Assembly (NCBI GenBank): GCA_945862385.1
Contig: CAMAXV010000002.1
Span: 1-64,000, forward strand
Direction: 5' to 3'
Origin: Chitinophaga pinensis
Lineage (GTDB): Bacteria > Bacteroidota > Bacteroidia > Chitinophagales > Chitinophagaceae
DNA length: 64,000 nt
Part shown: positions 36,862 to 45,277 of the stretch, piece by piece
Layout of the letters: each line of letters opens with the position of its first letter
Position numbering within the stretch: the first letter of the stretch is position 1
The notes under the pieces: model-generated
What the model was told of the DNA's origin: nothing
The model's database searches: none
The model's input: only the letters and a program-made list of their open reading frames with translations
Made by a program: the position numbers and the translations under genes

Positions 36862-37412
36862 AAGCGCTTACGTTTTTTAACTGCGGGATTACCCTGATAA
36901 ACTGTATTTGCTTCCATGTCTGTTGTAATAACAGAACCTGCAGTGAGAACAGATTGTTCAGCTGCATGAACACCCGGACAAACAACTGAGCATGCGCCAA
37001 TCCAGACTCCTTCTGCTAAAACAACTGACTTTGCCATAAGCTCAAAATCAGGAGAGCTGAAATTGTGGTTTCCCGTACAAATAAACGCACCCTGAGAAAT
37101 ACAACTGTTACTTCCTATGTATACCTGCTCCATGTTGTCTATCCAGCAATTTTCACCTAACCAAACATTGTCACCCATAATAAGCTTCCAGGGGAATTTA
37201 ATTATCACACCTGGTCTGATTCGTGGCGATTTGCCAATCTTGGCTCCAAAAAGTACTAAAATCATTTTCCTGAATCCGCTGAACGGAATCAGTGGGTTGC
37301 GAACAAAAAGCAGACTGCAAAAAAACCAAAGGAGCTGTTTCAGGTATGAAGCACCAATGGTGTGTTTATAGGCTCTATTGTGTTCATCATAGCTGCTCAA
37401 ATCAACTTTCAT
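36858..37412 (-). CDS. WcaF-like colanic-acid-type O-acetyltransferase
   Basis: 184 residues with left-handed beta-helix hexapeptide repeats in the C-terminal half (MGDNVWLGENCWIDN, VYIGSNSCISQGAFIC) and the catalytic histidine in TGNHNF. The N-terminal hydrophobic stretch (QLLWFFCSLLF) fits WcaF-type enzymes. It would acetylate a sugar of the polymer repeat. ATG at 37412, overlapping the TGA of the previous gene. Confidence 0.88.
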   Translation of the reverse strand: MKVDLSSYDEHNRAYKHTIGASYLKQLLWFFCSLLFVRNPLIPFSGFRKMILVLFGAKIGKSPRIRPGVIIKFPWKLIMGDNVWLGENCWIDNMEQVYIGSNSCISQGAFICTGNHNFSSPDFELMAKSVVLAEGVWIGACSVVCPGVHAAEQSVLTAGSVITTDMEANTVYQGNPAVKKRKRF

Positions 37413-38527
37413 CAGCTCGTAAATAATTTGTCATAATAATATTCCGATTGCATCTCATCAACATATTGCTTTGCTTTTTGCAAGGCACCCTGCCGGAATT
37501 CCTCCCAACAGGAACTATCCAACTTTACAAAGGTATTGATAGCATCAAGAAATAAATTATCAACTAATGGGATATCCATTCCTGCCTTACAACTCAACAA
37601 ATTTCTCCATGGAGTTTGATCGCTGATCAAAACAGGACAACCTACAGACAACGCTTCAAAAATAGCGTGTCCAAAACTTTCTCCTTGAGTTGGCAAAACA
37701 AACAAATGAACTTTTTCCATTAATTTTAATACTTCTGCGGGCTCTAAATCAAAATACCATGAAACTTTTATTGTTCCGGGGAGGTTTTCAGCCATGTGTT
37801 GACATAACTTAAAGTACGCAGGATCTTCTCTGATAACAGCGATTTCCAACTCTACTTCACCTTCCACATTATTCAAAATGCTGAGTAAAAATGAAAGGTT
37901 TTTAATCCGATGAAGACGTGCAGAAAAGAGGATACGGAGGTGTCCCGGTTGTTTATTAAAAGGCAACAATCCGGATATAACTTGTATGGGAATATTGGGT
38001 GCGGCAATGACATTTCGCACCATTGGAAATATTTTCCTGATTTCAACTTCTTCCTCGGAATTGGCAGCATGAAAAGTTACGTATTTCTCAACGCCCAGTA
38101 CCCGTAAAAACAAACAATAAATATATTTCTTCAAGGGTTTGTGTGCAAGTGCACTTGCTTTCAACATACCCCTTGGTGCAATGATAACTTTGCCAGACGG
38201 GTATGCCAGCCAAAGAGGAATAAACATATTTGAAAACATGGAATTAAGATAAATGCGGTCTGGATTTACATAAGCTATATTTTTTCTAACAACCCCTATA
38301 GTCATTTTACCGGGGGAATAATAATATACATGGATGTTGTCTTGCTTCTGCCACTGGTCTGGCAATATTCCAGAAAATGCTGTCGATGAATGAAGGTCCC
38401 TGTCTGATGTAAATACAAATATTTCATGAGACGCACGAAGGTGATTTACCAGATTTATGATTGACCTTACGGGACCGCCAGCCCTGAATGCGGGAGTGAA
38501 CCAATCTGTAAAAATGAGAATTCTCAA
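37412..38527 (-). CDS. Glycosyltransferase family 4 (GT-B)
   Basis: 371 residues from a TTG at 38527 (MRILIFTDWFTPAFRAGG). The N-terminal glycine-rich loop GGPVRSI and the C-terminal GT4 donor motif LPTQGESFGHAIFEAL (E-x7-E) are present. Starts in the asnB stop codon (TTGA), so it is translationally coupled. The sugar donor cannot be deduced. Confidence 0.9.
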   Translation of the reverse strand: MRILIFTDWFTPAFRAGGPVRSIINLVNHLRASHEIFVFTSDRDLHSSTAFSGILPDQWQKQDNIHVYYYSPGKMTIGVVRKNIAYVNPDRIYLNSMFSNMFIPLWLAYPSGKVIIAPRGMLKASALAHKPLKKYIYCLFLRVLGVEKYVTFHAANSEEEVEIRKIFPMVRNVIAAPNIPIQVISGLLPFNKQPGHLRILFSARLHRIKNLSFLLSILNNVEGEVELEIAVIREDPAYFKLCQHMAENLPGTIKVSWYFDLEPAEVLKLMEKVHLFVLPTQGESFGHAIFEALSVGCPVLISDQTPWRNLLSCKAGMDIPLVDNLFLDAINTFVKLDSSCWEEFRQGALQKAKQYVDEMQSEYYYDKLFTS

Positions 38528-40383
38528 TTGAGGTTATTTTTTTGTAACCAGGATCCCAAAACCACAAAAGACCACATGGTAGTCCATTTTTCTCCTGAAC
38601 GTTCGCGTAAAAATTGCTTCCACGCCTTAAGTAAATTTTTATGGTCTATAAAATCATATGCTGAAAGCGAAATAATAGCCTGATCACATACTTCAAAAAG
38701 TGAGCTGCGCATCCACCTGTCCATTGGCAAAACAAACCCTTTTTTGGCTCTGCGGTTTATACCTTCGGGTAGAAGGGGATTCAAAGTATCTATCAGTAAT
38801 TGCTTTGGATATTTACTCAGCTTAATCGCATCAGGTAAACCCAACATAAATTCTATCAGCTTCTGATCAAAAAAAGGCTCCCTGATTTCCAAACCATTGG
38901 CCATTCCCATCTGATCATTATCGCGCAACAAAGTATTTGCTGCATAATAATTAAGTTCGGCTAAACTGTAATTGCTGATGCAATAATCATCAACTGACTG
39001 AATTTCTTTTAAGTCTCTCGTTAATGTAAGTGAAGGATTATAATCCAGCTTTGTAAACCTGGATACATCAGCCATGCTCATCATTTGTCTTAATGCAGGA
39101 TAGCAATCCTGAACCTGATGTGTTTTTGAAGACAACATTTTAGACAATCCAAATGCAAAAGAAGATGTTGAATGTTGAAGCAAGGAAGAAATATTCTTCC
39201 TAAAATAATATGTACAATCAAAAAGTACCCTCCATTTCTGCAACAACTTTGCATACCTAAAACCGGGATATCCTGCGAACAATTCATCCCCGCCGAGACC
39301 GGAAAGCATCACTTTCATTCCAGCCCTGGCTGCAGCTGCTGAAATCAAATATGTATTTAAGCCATCTAAAGAGGGGCTATCCAGGTTTGATAAAAAAGCT
39401 GATACCTGATGCTGACAATCATCAGGATGTATGGTAATTGCATGATGATTGGTACTGTATAACCTCGCAAATTCTGCTGCTTCCTTTGACTCATCAAACC
39501 CTTCTTCTTCAAGACTCAAAGTAAATGTGTTAACCGGATTGGAAGAATGTAAAGACGCCAGTGCAACAACAGCAGAAGAATCAATACCTCCGGATAGAAA
39601 TACACCCATTGGTACAACTCCCTGCAACCTTGATACCACAGCTTCGTTCAATAAGTTAAACAAATCTTTCCTTAAAGCAGTAATATTAGGTGTTTGCCGA
39701 AAAACAATGTTTATAGGGCATAGCTTATAGTATGGGGTAAGTTCAGAACCAAACTGAGAAATCTTCAGAAAACAACCGGGTGGTATCTCCTGAACATCCT
39801 GAATAAAAGTAGCAGGATATCCTGCAGATTGATACTGAAGATAACCCGCAACAGTTCTGGTGTCTAATGAATGCTTTACTAATCCGCTTGCAAGCATTGA
39901 CCTAAGCTCAGATGAAAAGACACAGCTATCATTCTTATTGGTAAAGTATAATGGCTTAACACCCATTCTGTCTCTGGCTAACCACAAGATTTGTTCAACT
40001 TTATCCCATAACGCAAAAGCAAAAATACCATTAAACTTATTCACACACGAAATACCCCAAGCAGCAAAGGCAGCAACTAAAACTTCCGTATCTCCGTCAG
40101 AGATAAAATCATAATGAGGTAGTTCCTTTTTGATATCCCTAAAATTATAGATCTCGCCATTGTAAACAAGTACATACCTGCCACTTGGATCAGTAAAAGG
40201 TTGTGCAGAAGCAACAGAAAGATCCATTATAGATAGTCTTGCATGTGCCAATGATATAAAATAATCATGGTAAAATCCATTTCCATCCGGACCTCTGTGA
40301 GTAAGTTGACCAAGCATATGGGTCACACTGCTCACAGAAGAGTCTACCTTACCATTATGCCATATGCCTGCAATACCGCAAAT
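38524..40383 (-). CDS. asnB: Asparagine synthase (glutamine-hydrolysing), apparent ATT start codon
   Basis: 619 residues if translation begins at ATT 40383-40381. The frame reads ATT TGC GGT ATT GCA, giving M-CGIAGIW, the invariant class II amidotransferase N-terminus whose Cys2 is the nucleophile after Met removal. No ATG, GTG or TTG precedes this cysteine after the in-frame TAA nine codons earlier; the first standard start (GTG, 40335) would delete the active site. Other motifs: HRGPDG, YNGEIYN, and the PP-loop LSGGIDSS. It is one of many such enzymes in capsule clusters, perhaps amidating a sugar acid. Confidence 0.93.
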   Translation of the reverse strand: MCGIAGIWHNGKVDSSVSSVTHMLGQLTHRGPDGNGFYHDYFISLAHARLSIMDLSVASAQPFTDPSGRYVLVYNGEIYNFRDIKKELPHYDFISDGDTEVLVAAFAAWGISCVNKFNGIFAFALWDKVEQILWLARDRMGVKPLYFTNKNDSCVFSSELRSMLASGLVKHSLDTRTVAGYLQYQSAGYPATFIQDVQEIPPGCFLKISQFGSELTPYYKLCPINIVFRQTPNITALRKDLFNLLNEAVVSRLQGVVPMGVFLSGGIDSSAVVALASLHSSNPVNTFTLSLEEEGFDESKEAAEFARLYSTNHHAITIHPDDCQHQVSAFLSNLDSPSLDGLNTYLISAAAARAGMKVMLSGLGGDELFAGYPGFRYAKLLQKWRVLFDCTYYFRKNISSLLQHSTSSFAFGLSKMLSSKTHQVQDCYPALRQMMSMADVSRFTKLDYNPSLTLTRDLKEIQSVDDYCISNYSLAELNYYAANTLLRDNDQMGMANGLEIREPFFDQKLIEFMLGLPDAIKLSKYPKQLLIDTLNPLLPEGINRRAKKGFVLPMDRWMRSSLFEVCDQAIISLSAYDFIDHKNLLKAWKQFLRERSGEKWTTMWSFVVLGSWLQKNNLN

Positions 40384-40406: not shown

Positions 40407-41399
40407 TTAAAGAATTGATGCTGCAACCTTATCATACAACTGTTGATATTGTTCAGCAATACTTATCACATCATATTTTCCTACCAAAGCAAAACCTTTT
40501 TCCCTTAAATCAGTGGTCTGTTGAGGATCATTAATCAATTTAAGTACAGCATTTCTGATAGAAATGATTGAAAAGGGGTCAACAAGTATTGCTGCGTCTT
40601 GCGCAATATCAGACATAGGTGGAATATTACTGGTTATCACAGGTAGTCCTTGCTGAAATGCTTCAATGATGGGTAATCCAAATCCTTCATATGTTGAAGG
40701 AAAAATCAAACAATCAGCCTTTGCATACGCTGATTGCATGGCGTTGTCACTCAATTCTTTGTCACAACTATAAACAACATCAAATTTATTCAACAACTCT
40801 ACTTCCCTCAATGTCAACGAACCAATAATCCTAAGATGAACTTTTAATCCATGCAAAGCTGGAATAATATTTTGTAAGTTTTTATTCGAAGTAGATCCTA
40901 TAAAAAGCAACACAGGATTCCGGGAAATGATTTTGATTGTATCGTTTAGCCCCAATTGCATAACCGGATTGGGTATCACCCATATTTTTGCAGGATCGCA
41001 TTTGACGCATGACAAAATTTCAAGCTTCGTTTTCTCAGAAACAGTAGTTATATACATGCAACGCCTAATAGGTAATTCGAGCAAGAGCCAACGCAACAGC
41101 GTTTTTTTCCACCCCCTGTATGTTTTTAGAAAAATCAGGTCATGTATGGTAAGAATGGTTTGCTTCTTTGGTAATGCTAAAACAGCATAATGATCATGCC
41201 CTGTAATGTGAAAAATACCATCCCGGAATTTTTTTAGATAAAATAAATTAGATAAAATAGATAAAACCCTCCCACCAGAAAATGGCAAACAGAAATGATG
41301 AATGCCATAATTTTTTATTTCAGGCATTATCAACTTAATCACTTTCTCAATGCTGTAAAAGCCCTTGATTGGATGCCGGAAAATATAAGTAAGCTTGAT
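40407..41399 (-). CDS. Glycosyltransferase family 4, apparent ATC start codon
   Basis: 330 residues if read from ATC at 41399-41397 (MKLTYIFRHPIKGFYSIEKV). This N-terminus looks typical of GT4 proteins and lies in frame directly after the polymerase stop codon. No ATG, GTG or TTG occurs between that TAA and a GTG at 41342, which would cut off 19 residues of the first strand. The body has HDLIFLKTYRGW, VIPNPV and the donor motif PSTYEGFGLPIIEAF. Donor sugar unknown. Confidence 0.85.
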   Translation of the reverse strand: MKLTYIFRHPIKGFYSIEKVIKLIMPEIKNYGIHHFCLPFSGGRVLSILSNLFYLKKFRDGIFHITGHDHYAVLALPKKQTILTIHDLIFLKTYRGWKKTLLRWLLLELPIRRCMYITTVSEKTKLEILSCVKCDPAKIWVIPNPVMQLGLNDTIKIISRNPVLLFIGSTSNKNLQNIIPALHGLKVHLRIIGSLTLREVELLNKFDVVYSCDKELSDNAMQSAYAKADCLIFPSTYEGFGLPIIEAFQQGLPVITSNIPPMSDIAQDAAILVDPFSIISIRNAVLKLINDPQQTTDLREKGFALVGKYDVISIAEQYQQLYDKVAASIL

Positions 41400-41408
41400 A
41401 ACTGAGTT

Positions 41409-42806
41409 TTACTTCTTTAAGAGAAAATTATCGAGGTATTTTATCAGGTATTTATTTAAAAGCCAAAATCCAATAGAATAGGTAATTGACCAACCCAAAA
41501 ACTTCGTTGTAGGAATTGGAAAACTCCATGCAAACTGAAAAATAGGAGCGGAATAACACATCCCCCAGATTATGTTATATCCGTTTACTATAAAATACCT
41601 GTACAACCAACCAATCCAGAATCCAAAAAAGAATATCGGAATAAACATATAAATCCTTCCGAAATCCACATAGGACTCTGCAACAGTTCCAAGCGAAAAG
41701 GACGTCCCCTGCTCAGCACCGGCAAATTGAATACCCGTATATTTTGAAGTAAGTTCTGAGTCGTAGATTGGCTTCTTATCTGGAAATAAGAAGCGTGGCT
41801 TTAGTACATGCTCAAATGCATTTTTCAACAACCCACCTTCTTCATGCGGGATATAAGCAGGAACCTGTTTCATTGTAAGCGCAAGGAACTCAACGTATGA
41901 GATCCTGTGTATCAAGCTTTCCAGTCCGGTAGAAAAACTTGAACTGAAATTTTCAGGTGAAAAATCCTCCCGCACTATTTCAATAAACTTAAATAAGTTA
42001 CTAAACTGATCTTCCTGAACAATTATCTGAGTTCGCTCTCCTCCGGTTAAATATTTTCTATACTCACCCTTACTATATGTCCATACTACAGACATAAACA
42101 AAGTAACTATAATGATGCTTGTTACGAGTAAAACAGACTTGAATGAAAATTTGGGAAGAAAAAGGAAATAAGCTCCTATCATCACAAGTATATAATCTTT
42201 AAAAGCGGCCCAGAAACCGCTGAAACTGAGTAGAATCTCTAACACAATAAGTATCAAAACAATTAACCTGTTGGAATCATCAACCAATGTATGTGCTATT
42301 AAGAAGGTAAGTAATACCCATTTCATGTAAGTGACAGATAGTAATAACTGTCCGCCTGGAATGAATATGATGGCATTATTGAGTGCAACAGACAACAAAG
42401 AAACAATGATATAAACAAGCATAATTTTTTGGCCATTATACCTATTGAGCAAACTGTTTAAAATGGAAATATCAATTGATTTTACCCGAAAAACAGCAAT
42501 TTGTATACCCATAAGATAAACAGCCAATGCAGTCAGTCCTATCCATGAAGAGAGAACTATATCACTTTTCCCATAAATATACATTTGCTGTAGCGGTCGA
42601 TTGACCATATCTGCATAAGGAATCAATATGGCAACAACAGACCAATAAAGCAACAGGTTCACAAGCAAGTGCTTGGCTTCATTCATCCGCCAGCAAACAT
42701 GAAATACATAAAGTAATAATACGCCAGCATAAAAAAATAAAAATGGCTCCGATGAAAAGGCTGCAAGCAAGAGAACTATCAGTATGAAAATGACTTTATT
42801 CTTCAA
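41409..42806 (-). CDS. Wzy-like polysaccharide polymerase (multi-pass membrane protein)
   Basis: 465 residues from a TTG at 42806 inside the end of the previous gene. At least ten hydrophobic segments and a large external loop (about residues 250-360, with GGERTQIIV and PHEEGGLLKNAFEHV) give the architecture of O-antigen/exopolysaccharide polymerases. Sequence conservation in Wzy is low, so the call rests on topology, the loop and location. It would join repeat units in the periplasm. Confidence 0.7.
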   Translation of the reverse strand: MKNKVIFILIVLLLAAFSSEPFLFFYAGVLLLYVFHVCWRMNEAKHLLVNLLLYWSVVAILIPYADMVNRPLQQMYIYGKSDIVLSSWIGLTALAVYLMGIQIAVFRVKSIDISILNSLLNRYNGQKIMLVYIIVSLLSVALNNAIIFIPGGQLLLSVTYMKWVLLTFLIAHTLVDDSNRLIVLILIVLEILLSFSGFWAAFKDYILVMIGAYFLFLPKFSFKSVLLVTSIIIVTLFMSVVWTYSKGEYRKYLTGGERTQIIVQEDQFSNLFKFIEIVREDFSPENFSSSFSTGLESLIHRISYVEFLALTMKQVPAYIPHEEGGLLKNAFEHVLKPRFLFPDKKPIYDSELTSKYTGIQFAGAEQGTSFSLGTVAESYVDFGRIYMFIPIFFFGFWIGWLYRYFIVNGYNIIWGMCYSAPIFQFAWSFPIPTTKFLGWSITYSIGFWLLNKYLIKYLDNFLLKK

Positions 42807-44025
42807 TTAAATTTTTTATGTTATCAAGGGACTCTTTGATAGATTGAAATGAAAAGTTTTCAATTGATTGTACAGCATTTCCGGAAAGAATTTTGCGGTG
42901 CGCTTCATTACAACATAACAACATTTTGCTTTCAAGATCATTTAAGTCATCAGATTTAAAGAGGTAACCATTGATACCCTCCTGAACTAGATCATGAGCA
43001 CAACCACATCGACTACTTACTAAAACAGGCGTCCCTGAAGCCAGGGCCTCATTAACTGAAAGACCCCATGTTTCACCTGGTCCCTTAGAAGGTAACACAA
43101 ACACACTGGCCAACCTGTAAAATAATTTTATATTATGCTGATCCTGAAAAGGAAAAAGATGAATTCGGTTAGCAATTGAATCTGTCAGATTACTAATTTG
43201 TGTTTTTATTGTTGACTCGAGTATTCCATCGCCAACCATTACCAGCCTTACGTCATCATGCTTCAAGGCAACTTTGTTAAATGCCTGAATAAGCAATAAA
43301 GGATTCTTCTTATCAATAAATTTACCTGCAAAAAGAAACACAAGATTGTTTGGGTTTATATTCAACCTTTCTTTCAATAAATTCAGGCTGTCATATTCAT
43401 TCGTAGAAAATTCAGCAAAACGAAAATTGTCAACTGCGTGGGGAGACCGGATAATCTGCTTCTCTGTTACTCCAGACTTTATGAAATAGGCATCAGAAGC
43501 AGAACCAGGACTAAGCACATAATCTACATACCTATAAACACACTTAAGCATGGTATACCTCAGTAAGAGCTTCAAGGGATTTGCTGTTGAATCATCAATA
43601 CTTGTGGAATCTCCCCTGAAAACAACAGGAATTCTTCCTTTATAATGCAGCATCATGCTCAAATGACTAAAATAATTCCATCCAAAAATAATGATGAGTG
43701 TAGGGTTATAAGCTGCTGTTTTTTTTATTATGCCGGGATTGACAATAGAAAAAAATGAAGTGAGTTTATTATCAAATGCACAATTATTTAAAAACTCATA
43801 TTTATACCCTTTCAATAAATCAATATTCCATGACCGCTTCTTGCCAAATCCAACATCAAAAGACGCTCCATCTTCTTTACCACTTGTATAAAAAACTTTT
43901 AAGTCATACTCTCCATAGCCTGCAAGAAATTCAAATAGTGGCGCATGATACTGCACCAGATGGGTTGTTATGATCAGGATTCTGTGCGACAAAAATAATG
44001 TTTCATGATTACTTATTGATTGCAT
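42796..44025 (-). CDS. Glycosyltransferase family 4
   Basis: 409 residues with an ATG at 44025, 17 bases inside the preceding gene. The family-like part begins at RILIITTHLVQYHAPLF (about residue 15), so a later start is possible. The GT4 C-terminal domain shows LFAGKFIDKKNP and LPSKGPGETWGLSVNEAL with a following SSRCGCAHDLV. Donor sugar unknown. Confidence 0.9.
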   Translation of the reverse strand: MQSISNHETLFLSHRILIITTHLVQYHAPLFEFLAGYGEYDLKVFYTSGKEDGASFDVGFGKKRSWNIDLLKGYKYEFLNNCAFDNKLTSFFSIVNPGIIKKTAAYNPTLIIIFGWNYFSHLSMMLHYKGRIPVVFRGDSTSIDDSTANPLKLLLRYTMLKCVYRYVDYVLSPGSASDAYFIKSGVTEKQIIRSPHAVDNFRFAEFSTNEYDSLNLLKERLNINPNNLVFLFAGKFIDKKNPLLLIQAFNKVALKHDDVRLVMVGDGILESTIKTQISNLTDSIANRIHLFPFQDQHNIKLFYRLASVFVLPSKGPGETWGLSVNEALASGTPVLVSSRCGCAHDLVQEGINGYLFKSDDLNDLESKMLLCCNEAHRKILSGNAVQSIENFSFQSIKESLDNIKNLIEE

Positions 44026-45277
44026 GCATTATATCACCAAGAGGACTGATTAACTGTTCAACAGAAAGTGATTCAACCTTTTCCTGAATAAAAGACCATT
44101 CCTTGTTGATTGTTTTCAACTTCCATGATATAAACTTTTTTTCAATATCACTGCAGAATGCTTCCTGAGACAATTGCTCATCAAATTCACATACAGATCC
44201 CCAGTATGCTGAACGAATTATTTCATTCACAGAGCAATCCCTGTGCAAAAGCGCAAAAACAGGGGTTTTCATTAAAATAGCATTAAATAACTTACTGGGC
44301 GTATAATGGCGTTCAGTACTGCCCAGAATAAATACTCCGGCTGCATCCCGTACATGAGCAAGAACGTCAAAATAAGACAAGCGCAAAGGATACTCCATAA
44401 TCACCTGACTGCTTAAGCCATATTGACGAGCCAAGTTTGCTATGGATGACTCAATACCTTCAATTTGATTCTTTCCCGTCCCTATAAAATGAATGCAGAC
44501 ATCCGAAAATAAGAGCGGATTACTGGCAATCACTTTGAAAAAAGCAACAAGTAACTCCTTGGACTTAGGCAAAAAAGCACCAGCATAAACGAGTCTGATC
44601 TTCGCATCGTTGCCATACAAATATCCACGTTTGTTCAGCTTTGTCAAAACAGCCTGCTCTGTCCTATCCCATCCATATGGCATAGCATATGTTTTTGCAG
44701 ATGAAATCAAATGTGGATTTCTCTTCAAAACAGGGTTATAATAGGATGCTGATACTCCGGTAATCAGGGATGCAGCAGACACAGCCCATGGTTCAAGTAT
44801 CTTCGCCACTAACGTAGAAAACCAGTGTCTACTGAATTTCTTTTCGGATCCCGGGAAATAATGGACCCATGGATCGATATAATCTATACCATATCTGACA
44901 CCAAATCGCATAAAAAGGACTTTTCCAATAAGCGCCAGGTAAAAAGAGGGAATGAAAATGTAAACAAAATCAATCTTTTCCTGCTTAATTAACTTTGAAG
45001 CCCTTTGTACGAGTTGAAAAAAACCCCTCAAACCAACATCACCAATCATCCTCGGTCTTGTAATAGGTAGTGCAGTAACTTTCTCAATGTGCTGACCTTC
45101 TGGAATGAGTTCCAGTAATTCAGGATCTGGTTTCTCCTCATAATATTGTTCATCTACCGTCAACACAATAGGTTCCCAACCACAATGCGGCAAATGATTG
45201 GCAAACAACCTTACCCTATGGACAGCTGTAAGGTTTGAAGGCGGATAATGAGATGCTATGAGAAGTACCTTTGCGAT
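44009..45277 (-). CDS. Glycosyltransferase (GT-B type), apparent ATC start codon
   Basis: 422 residues if read from ATC at 45277-45275 (MAKVLLIASHYPPSNLTAVH). This is the normal glycosyltransferase N-terminus; it follows the previous gene's TAA in the same frame after a single GTA codon. The first ATG/GTG/TTG is a TTG at 45208, which would remove 23 residues including the first strand and SHYPPSN loop. The C-terminal domain has LVYAGAFLPKSKELL and FILGSTERHYTPSKLFNAI. Donor unknown. Confidence 0.8.
   Translation of the reverse strand: MAKVLLIASHYPPSNLTAVHRVRLFANHLPHCGWEPIVLTVDEQYYEEKPDPELLELIPEGQHIEKVTALPITRPRMIGDVGLRGFFQLVQRASKLIKQEKIDFVYIFIPSFYLALIGKVLFMRFGVRYGIDYIDPWVHYFPGSEKKFSRHWFSTLVAKILEPWAVSAASLITGVSASYYNPVLKRNPHLISSAKTYAMPYGWDRTEQAVLTKLNKRGYLYGNDAKIRLVYAGAFLPKSKELLVAFFKVIASNPLLFSDVCIHFIGTGKNQIEGIESSIANLARQYGLSSQVIMEYPLRLSYFDVLAHVRDAAGVFILGSTERHYTPSKLFNAILMKTPVFALLHRDCSVNEIIRSAYWGSVCEFDEQLSQEAFCSDIEKKFISWKLKTINKEWSFIQEKVESLSVEQLISPLGDIMHAINK

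Follow-up and report, generated by a model that had tools for sequence, protein, structure and literature searches.

Putative AUU and AUC start codons in a polysaccharide gene cluster of Chitinophaga: an amidotransferase gene and a conserved glycosyltransferase start

The locus and the asnB reading frame

The window, i.e., the whole 64,000-nucleotide stretch of Chitinophaga pinensis DNA analysed here, carries on its minus strand a polysaccharide cluster (33331-56576) with unusually many weak starts (TTG, GTG, ATC and ATT). It includes asnB (38524-40383, minus strand; stop 38526-38524), which encodes an asparagine-synthase-like class II glutamine amidotransferase and which, going by its cluster context, is suggested to amidate a sugar or a glycan. 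On its upstream side, asnB is adjoined by GTb (40407-41399, minus strand), a GT4 glycosyltransferase gene (Glycos_transf_1). Two other genes of interest are GTc (42796-44025), which has an ATG start in the window, and GTa (IAKVLLIASHYPPSNLTAVHR..., 44009-45277, minus strand), whose product is glycosyltransferase-like by eye and has no match in Pfam at 0.001. The gene that follows asnB (37412-38527, minus strand) encodes a glycosyltransferase, and its TTG start overlaps the asnB stop (TTGA); going by coordinates, such TTGA stop/start overlaps are located at 38527 and 36861.

On the minus strand, the beginning of the asnB frame reads TAA (40404-40402) CCT CTT AAA ACA TTC ATT ATT (40383-40381) TGC GGT ATT GCA, and the frame continues without interruption as far as the stop at 38524, for a total of 619 codons. 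Its product matches GATase_7 (136.5 bits) and Asn_synthase (229.8 bits), reaches 395.9 bits against TIGR01536 (cut-off 267.1) and contains the sequence SGGIDSS, which fits SGG-x-DSS, the nucleotide-loop motif of asparagine synthase. Frame and domain matches thus bear out the first-pass annotation, made from the sequence alone, which had read an ATT in the place of ATG before the CGIAG of a class II amidotransferase. The accompanying claim, that no ATG, GTG or TTG lies between the upstream in-frame stop and the Cys, is confirmed over the six codons from this stop to ATT 40383. The first canonical codon of the frame is GTG 40335. It is indeed the start used in the mechanical ORF list, with loss of the active-site Cys, as had been anticipated for a standard gene caller.

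For the Cys to be at position 2 (CGIAG), the initiator has to be ATT 40383; a further ATT is located one codon before it (40386-40384). In all 15 homologous ORFs compared, the alignment extends 5' beyond GTG 40335 and takes in the CGI motif region. The start contexts were scored with a matrix derived from 102 ATG genes of the genome, in which an A peak (0.57 at -11) is present and a G-rich Shine-Dalgarno (SD) sequence is absent. ATT 40383 scores 2.15, at the 81st percentile of the ATG genes and the 98th percentile of random sites, compared with the 8th percentile of the ATG genes for GTG 40335; the model prefers ATT 40383 to both ATT 40386 and GTG 40335. No SD sequence is found before ATT 40383 (anti-SD duplex of +1.7 kcal/mol), and the RNA folding of the start regions is unremarkable. 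As the Cys must follow the initiator, as the frame holds no other usable start and as the context is start-like, ATT 40383 (40381-40383, minus strand) is supported as the best reading of the asnB initiator, in keeping with the initial proposal of an ATT adjoining the catalytic Cys.

ATT before the catalytic Cys in other genomes

The asnB protein has a match in 34 of the 41 genus genomes searched, and 37 at E 1e-140 or better in 394 family genomes. Of 75 loci examined, 64 have a readable N-terminus, which starts with ATG (56 loci), TTG (five), GTG (two) or, in the window only, ATT; the other 11 are without. The nearest homologues, at 46-54% identity, have TTG, ATG or GTG before the Cys. Since ATT is found in a single genome whose nearest relatives have canonical codons, the asnB ATT appears not to be conserved and, taken alone, could be a recent mutation or an error. 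The comparison of first codons in relatives, proposed with the first-pass annotation, therefore fails to extend the ATT of asnB beyond the window; at the neighbouring GTb, an ATC is kept in nine genomes (see below).

Non-ATG starts are more frequent in the nearest asnB group (7/11) than in the remainder (1/53), with a Fisher p of 4e-6 that is overstated, as the group was picked by similarity and omits L015 (ATG), which lies inside the group on the tree. The group also contains four or five closely related TTG members, and four start-codon changes are counted in the 46-row tree. When related loci were searched for in genome contigs, no close relative of the locus was confirmed.

Two patterns were searched for more widely. 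ATH-CGIAG, a pattern that does not cover variants like CGITG, is found at 41 places in the 394 family genomes, more often than by chance (four for the reversed control), and the window is the sole amidotransferase among the 30 places read (11 further ones are unread). ATT-CGI..HRGPD is found in 15 stretches over 84,980 genomes. Nine of these are false, with an ATG two codons earlier (eight MCGICGI and one MSGICGI), and one is no gene. The five others (L066, L069, L070, L071 and L075) are candidate ATT-start amidotransferases of unrelated bacteria in other phyla, their sources being Gemmatimonadales UBA7835, Marininema halotolerans, Sphingomonas sp. PL-96, a Bacillota MAG and Sphingomonas hankookensis; three of the five come from named strains, not labelled MAG. 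An in-frame ATG is located 14 and 20 codons upstream in L070 and L075, respectively, and 25 bases upstream of the ATT are visible in L069. An SD-like purine pairing is found in all five candidates, its end being located 6-8 bases 5' of the ATT, with anti-SD duplexes of -5.8 to -11.6 kcal/mol; shuffled sequences are as low in fractions of 0.002 to 0.127, so that this pairing is striking in only some of them. This amidotransferase class thus appears to have acquired ATT starts on several occasions, though rarely. The same kind of scan in viral contigs yields 43 stretches with ATG and none with GTG or ATT. As a separate observation, L064, L065, L067, L068, L074, L076, L077 and L078 are amidotransferases with MCGICGI, in which CGI is doubled at the catalytic N-terminus.

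A conserved ATC at the start of GTb

GTb probably begins with ATC 41399 (41397-41399, minus strand), followed by KLTYIFRHPIKGFYSIEKV. Its first canonical codon is GTG 41342, and starting there would drop 19 conserved codons. A homologue is found at E 1e-30 in 25 of the 41 genus genomes, and the N-terminus was read at 19 loci; six genomes are unread, two with the N-terminus missing or unaligned and four with matches that have no start reading. The start column is ATC in nine of the 19 loci (G000, G032, G036, G040, G013, G019, G023, G005 and G028), and the ten other loci have a canonical codon in this column or at most eight codons away. Eight of the nine ATC loci have no ATG, GTG or TTG from the preceding in-frame stop to the ATC, and, downstream, they first reach a canonical codon 19 to 68 codons in; the ninth, G023, has a TTG 22 codons upstream of the ATC. 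The in-frame stop is separated from the ATC by no more than four triplets in G000, G032, G019 and G005, so that little else can be the start. An ATT is located three codons before the ATC in G005, and another ATC two codons after the start-column ATC in both G032 and G005; because of these additional codons, the exact start is less fixed in these two genomes.

The nine species represent about four divergent lineages, six of the species being at 81-90% identity. Positions -54 to -1 have a nucleotide identity of 37.4% among the six close species, versus 91.4% at +4 to +57. Codons 2-20 have a dN/dS of about 0.13, i.e., purifying selection is seen from codon 2, and the upstream triplets (pS 0.63, pN 0.62) behave as non-coding. 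All nine loci have ATC in the start column, and mixed codons are used in every one of the 12 other columns that are entirely Ile; single-codon usage is found in 7 of the 97 invariant columns, start column included. Given the same codon in all nine genomes and the conservation pattern around it, sequencing error cannot, from these alignments, explain the ATC of GTb. Outside the genus, where 58 genomes match at E 1e-50 and 25 loci were available, a canonical codon is present at most eight codons from the start column in all 24 loci with an aligned N-terminus (L279 being left out). The context of the GTb ATC is at the 46th percentile of the 102 ATG genes, and that of GTG 41342 at the 13th. GTb would thus provide stronger evidence for AUH starts than asnB itself. 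Three GTb homologues contain internal in-frame stops (G217:C1:356891, G216:C65:8949 and G026:C124:508) and are probably decayed copies.

GTa and GTc

GTa begins with ATC 45277 (proposed initiator 45275-45277, minus strand), then AKVLLIASHYPPSNLTAVHR. Its first canonical codon, TTG 45208, lies within conserved coding sequence; the context of the ATC is at the 76th percentile of the 102 ATG genes, and that of the TTG at the 2nd. This ATC is present in one genome only, the homologues having ATG or TTG. The GTc start column is ATG in G006 and G008, ATC in G028 and ATT in G036 and G023. Nothing canonical is found from the AUH codon back to the stop in G028 and G023, a GTG is located far upstream of the ATT in G036, and GTG and TTG are available in G032 and G005. 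GTa and GTc thus appear to agree with AUH starts in the cluster. Two observations can be added: the GTc homologue of G029 (L256 8217-8555) has ACG in the start column and nothing canonical back to the in-frame stop, and in G008 (L255 12198-14927) one 909-codon open frame holds two GTa-like glycosyltransferase matches.

Weak starts in the polysaccharide cluster

Homologues in relatives' contigs are available for 23 of the 58 listed window genes, and among these, coding at least 20 codons 5' of the first canonical codon is supported in exactly three window ORFs, namely asnB, GTb and GTa (by 15, 15 and 9 ORFs, respectively). Starts were surveyed over 264 kb (the window and 200 kb), in 223 ORFs with a length of 100 aa or more. 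TTG or GTG comes first, with no ATG within 20 codons, in 10/20 cluster ORFs versus 20/203 outside (p 3e-5), the first canonical codon being a proxy for the start and the outside ORFs possibly including spurious ones. With asnB and GTb counted, non-ATG starts amount to 12/20 in the cluster versus 20/203 (p 6e-7). The start-context model moreover ranks each of the three AUH codons (asnB, GTb and GTa) above its downstream GTG or TTG. The short upstream stretches of the three genes give weak log-odds for codon usage (0.07 to 1.5); as a genome-wide AUH finder, this measure was rejected, since known cases went unflagged. Altogether, the cluster seems genuinely to use very weak start codons, which do not look like the product of a sequencing slip.

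Translation apparatus and proposed mechanism

We propose that asnB would be translated from AUU 40383 by the ordinary initiator tRNA, giving fMet-Cys, and that removal of the Met would, as expected for this enzyme class, expose the Cys nucleophile. This would be part of a genus habit, in which polysaccharide-cluster genes may be initiated on AUC or AUU without a Shine-Dalgarno sequence, in an A-rich leader and presumably at low efficiency. From what is seen in E. coli and S. aureus, such AUH initiation should be IF3-sensitive. Re-initiation by just-terminated ribosomes may help the AUH starts of the window, where the gap from the preceding stop to the AUH codon is 3 bases for GTa, 9 for GTb and 23 for asnB. 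The GTb gap is 3 bases in G032 and 49-85 bases in G036, G040, G023, G005 and G028, five relatives in view of which a tight coupling to the upstream gene is not general. Weak, SD-independent starts could serve to keep glycan enzymes at low, matched levels.

Neither the tRNAs read nor IF3 show a change expected to facilitate initiation on AUH. One initiator-like CAU tRNA is present among the tRNAs read, and an additional initiator tRNA carrying a GAU anticodon is not found in the 30 loci read by ARAGORN (33 tRNA matches), a weak negative, as the set (two CAU tRNAs, three unread matches, no tRNA-Ile or tRNA-Asn) looks incomplete. An altered IF3 was discarded, as the protein is ordinary-looking and aligns with solved IF3 chains over nearly its whole length. 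Autoregulation of the infC type was also discarded: the infC frame of the genome offers suitable ATG (and TTG) starts, the one in use being a predicted one, and AUH is unneeded there.

Alternative explanations

The ATT of asnB could derive from an ATG or TTG start, either through a mistake in sequencing or consensus building or through a newly arisen mutation that abolished the start (for example, TTG-TGC contracted by two bases); this would fit with the presence of the ATT in one genome and with the canonical codons of its nearest homologues. Such an origin is nevertheless unlikely, since the cluster has two more AUH starts, including one that nine genomes share, and since the asnB frame is intact through 619 codons. 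A start at GTG 40335, which would lead to an ammonia-dependent synthetase devoid of the Cys nucleophile, has in its favour that this is the first in-frame canonical codon; the alignment of all the homologous ORFs further upstream and the poor context of this GTG make it most improbable.

Two other explanations concern the cluster more generally. GTa and GTb could be reached by read-through of the preceding stop, and asnB by frameshifting, as the stop of the preceding gene is an in-frame TAA before both GTa and GTb, and likewise a TAG in G032. However, the preceding ORF is in another frame in G036, G023, G005 and G028, the conservation of GTb starts at the ATC and not earlier in the six close species, and asnB and GTb are in different frames, so that we give this explanation hardly any credit. 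The genes could also start on another unusual codon, up- or downstream, instead of AUH: CTC, CTT, ACC or ACG triplets are close by, and the ACG in the GTc start column of G029 could be seen in the same way. This is very unlikely, as ATC is the sole near-cognate codon common to the four GTb loci with a close upstream stop, and as only ATT 40383 places the Cys of asnB at position 2. From this sequence comparison, initiation of asnB on AUU, as part of an AUH-start habit of the genus in polysaccharide genes, is thus probable (at about 0.8).

Significance and comparison with known systems

The first reading of asnB would therefore be right, at a lower certainty than GTb allows, and the larger finding is, as far as sequences can tell, that a genus lacking SD sequences retains an AUC start in one of its glycan genes. 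One attractive possibility, to which we give an even chance, is that throughout the genus the polysaccharide-cluster genes as a class keep AUC and AUU starts beside UUG and GUG, chosen through upstream context and local re-initiation instead of SD pairing, as a graded code that limits glycan-enzyme dosage. If true, such a code would be unseen by gene callers, which truncate AUH-start proteins; here, it is the catalytic nucleophile of an amidotransferase that is lost. A conserved AUC without SD also raises the question of how so weak a start gets picked, and GTb in nine species would be a natural and testable set of AUC starts.

In E. coli, infC and pcnB have AUU starts, together with SD sequences. 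They resemble asnB by their AUU initiator, with low efficiency and IF3 sensitivity to be expected, and differ from it by their SD, which asnB lacks (+1.7 kcal/mol); moreover, infC has a suitable ATG in the present genome. Within the partial literature covered, no report of AUC or AUU starts in Bacteroidota or in polysaccharide clusters was found by title or abstract. SD-less initiation is described in Flavobacterium johnsoniae, where it is favoured by A at -3, and the absence of SD is shared with the present starts; the terms AUU and non-AUG are absent from the main text of that article (PMC6847099). In S. aureus, cvfC1 (AUU), ccpN and infC (both AUA) are reported to have non-canonical starts, which are conserved for cvfC1 and ccpN and give about 10% of the AUG yield in poor medium, within an S. 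aureus precedent of about 10-30%; these sites carry extended SD motifs, whereas the AUH starts described here are without any SD (PMC13009471). Six conserved Listeria genes are listed with a fixed non-canonical start, including infC (ATT) and rnhC (ATC), both stated to be experimentally confirmed (PMC13068326). These ATT and ATC starts are, like those of the present cluster, fixed in a population, but they concern one species of another phylum and no glycan cluster (PMC13068326). Finally, the Borrelia PncA protein, another gene in another phylum than asnB, is presented as having a mis-annotated AUU start, and the likeness is close in one respect: a needed N-terminus was lost in databases because AUU was ignored (PMC13398362).
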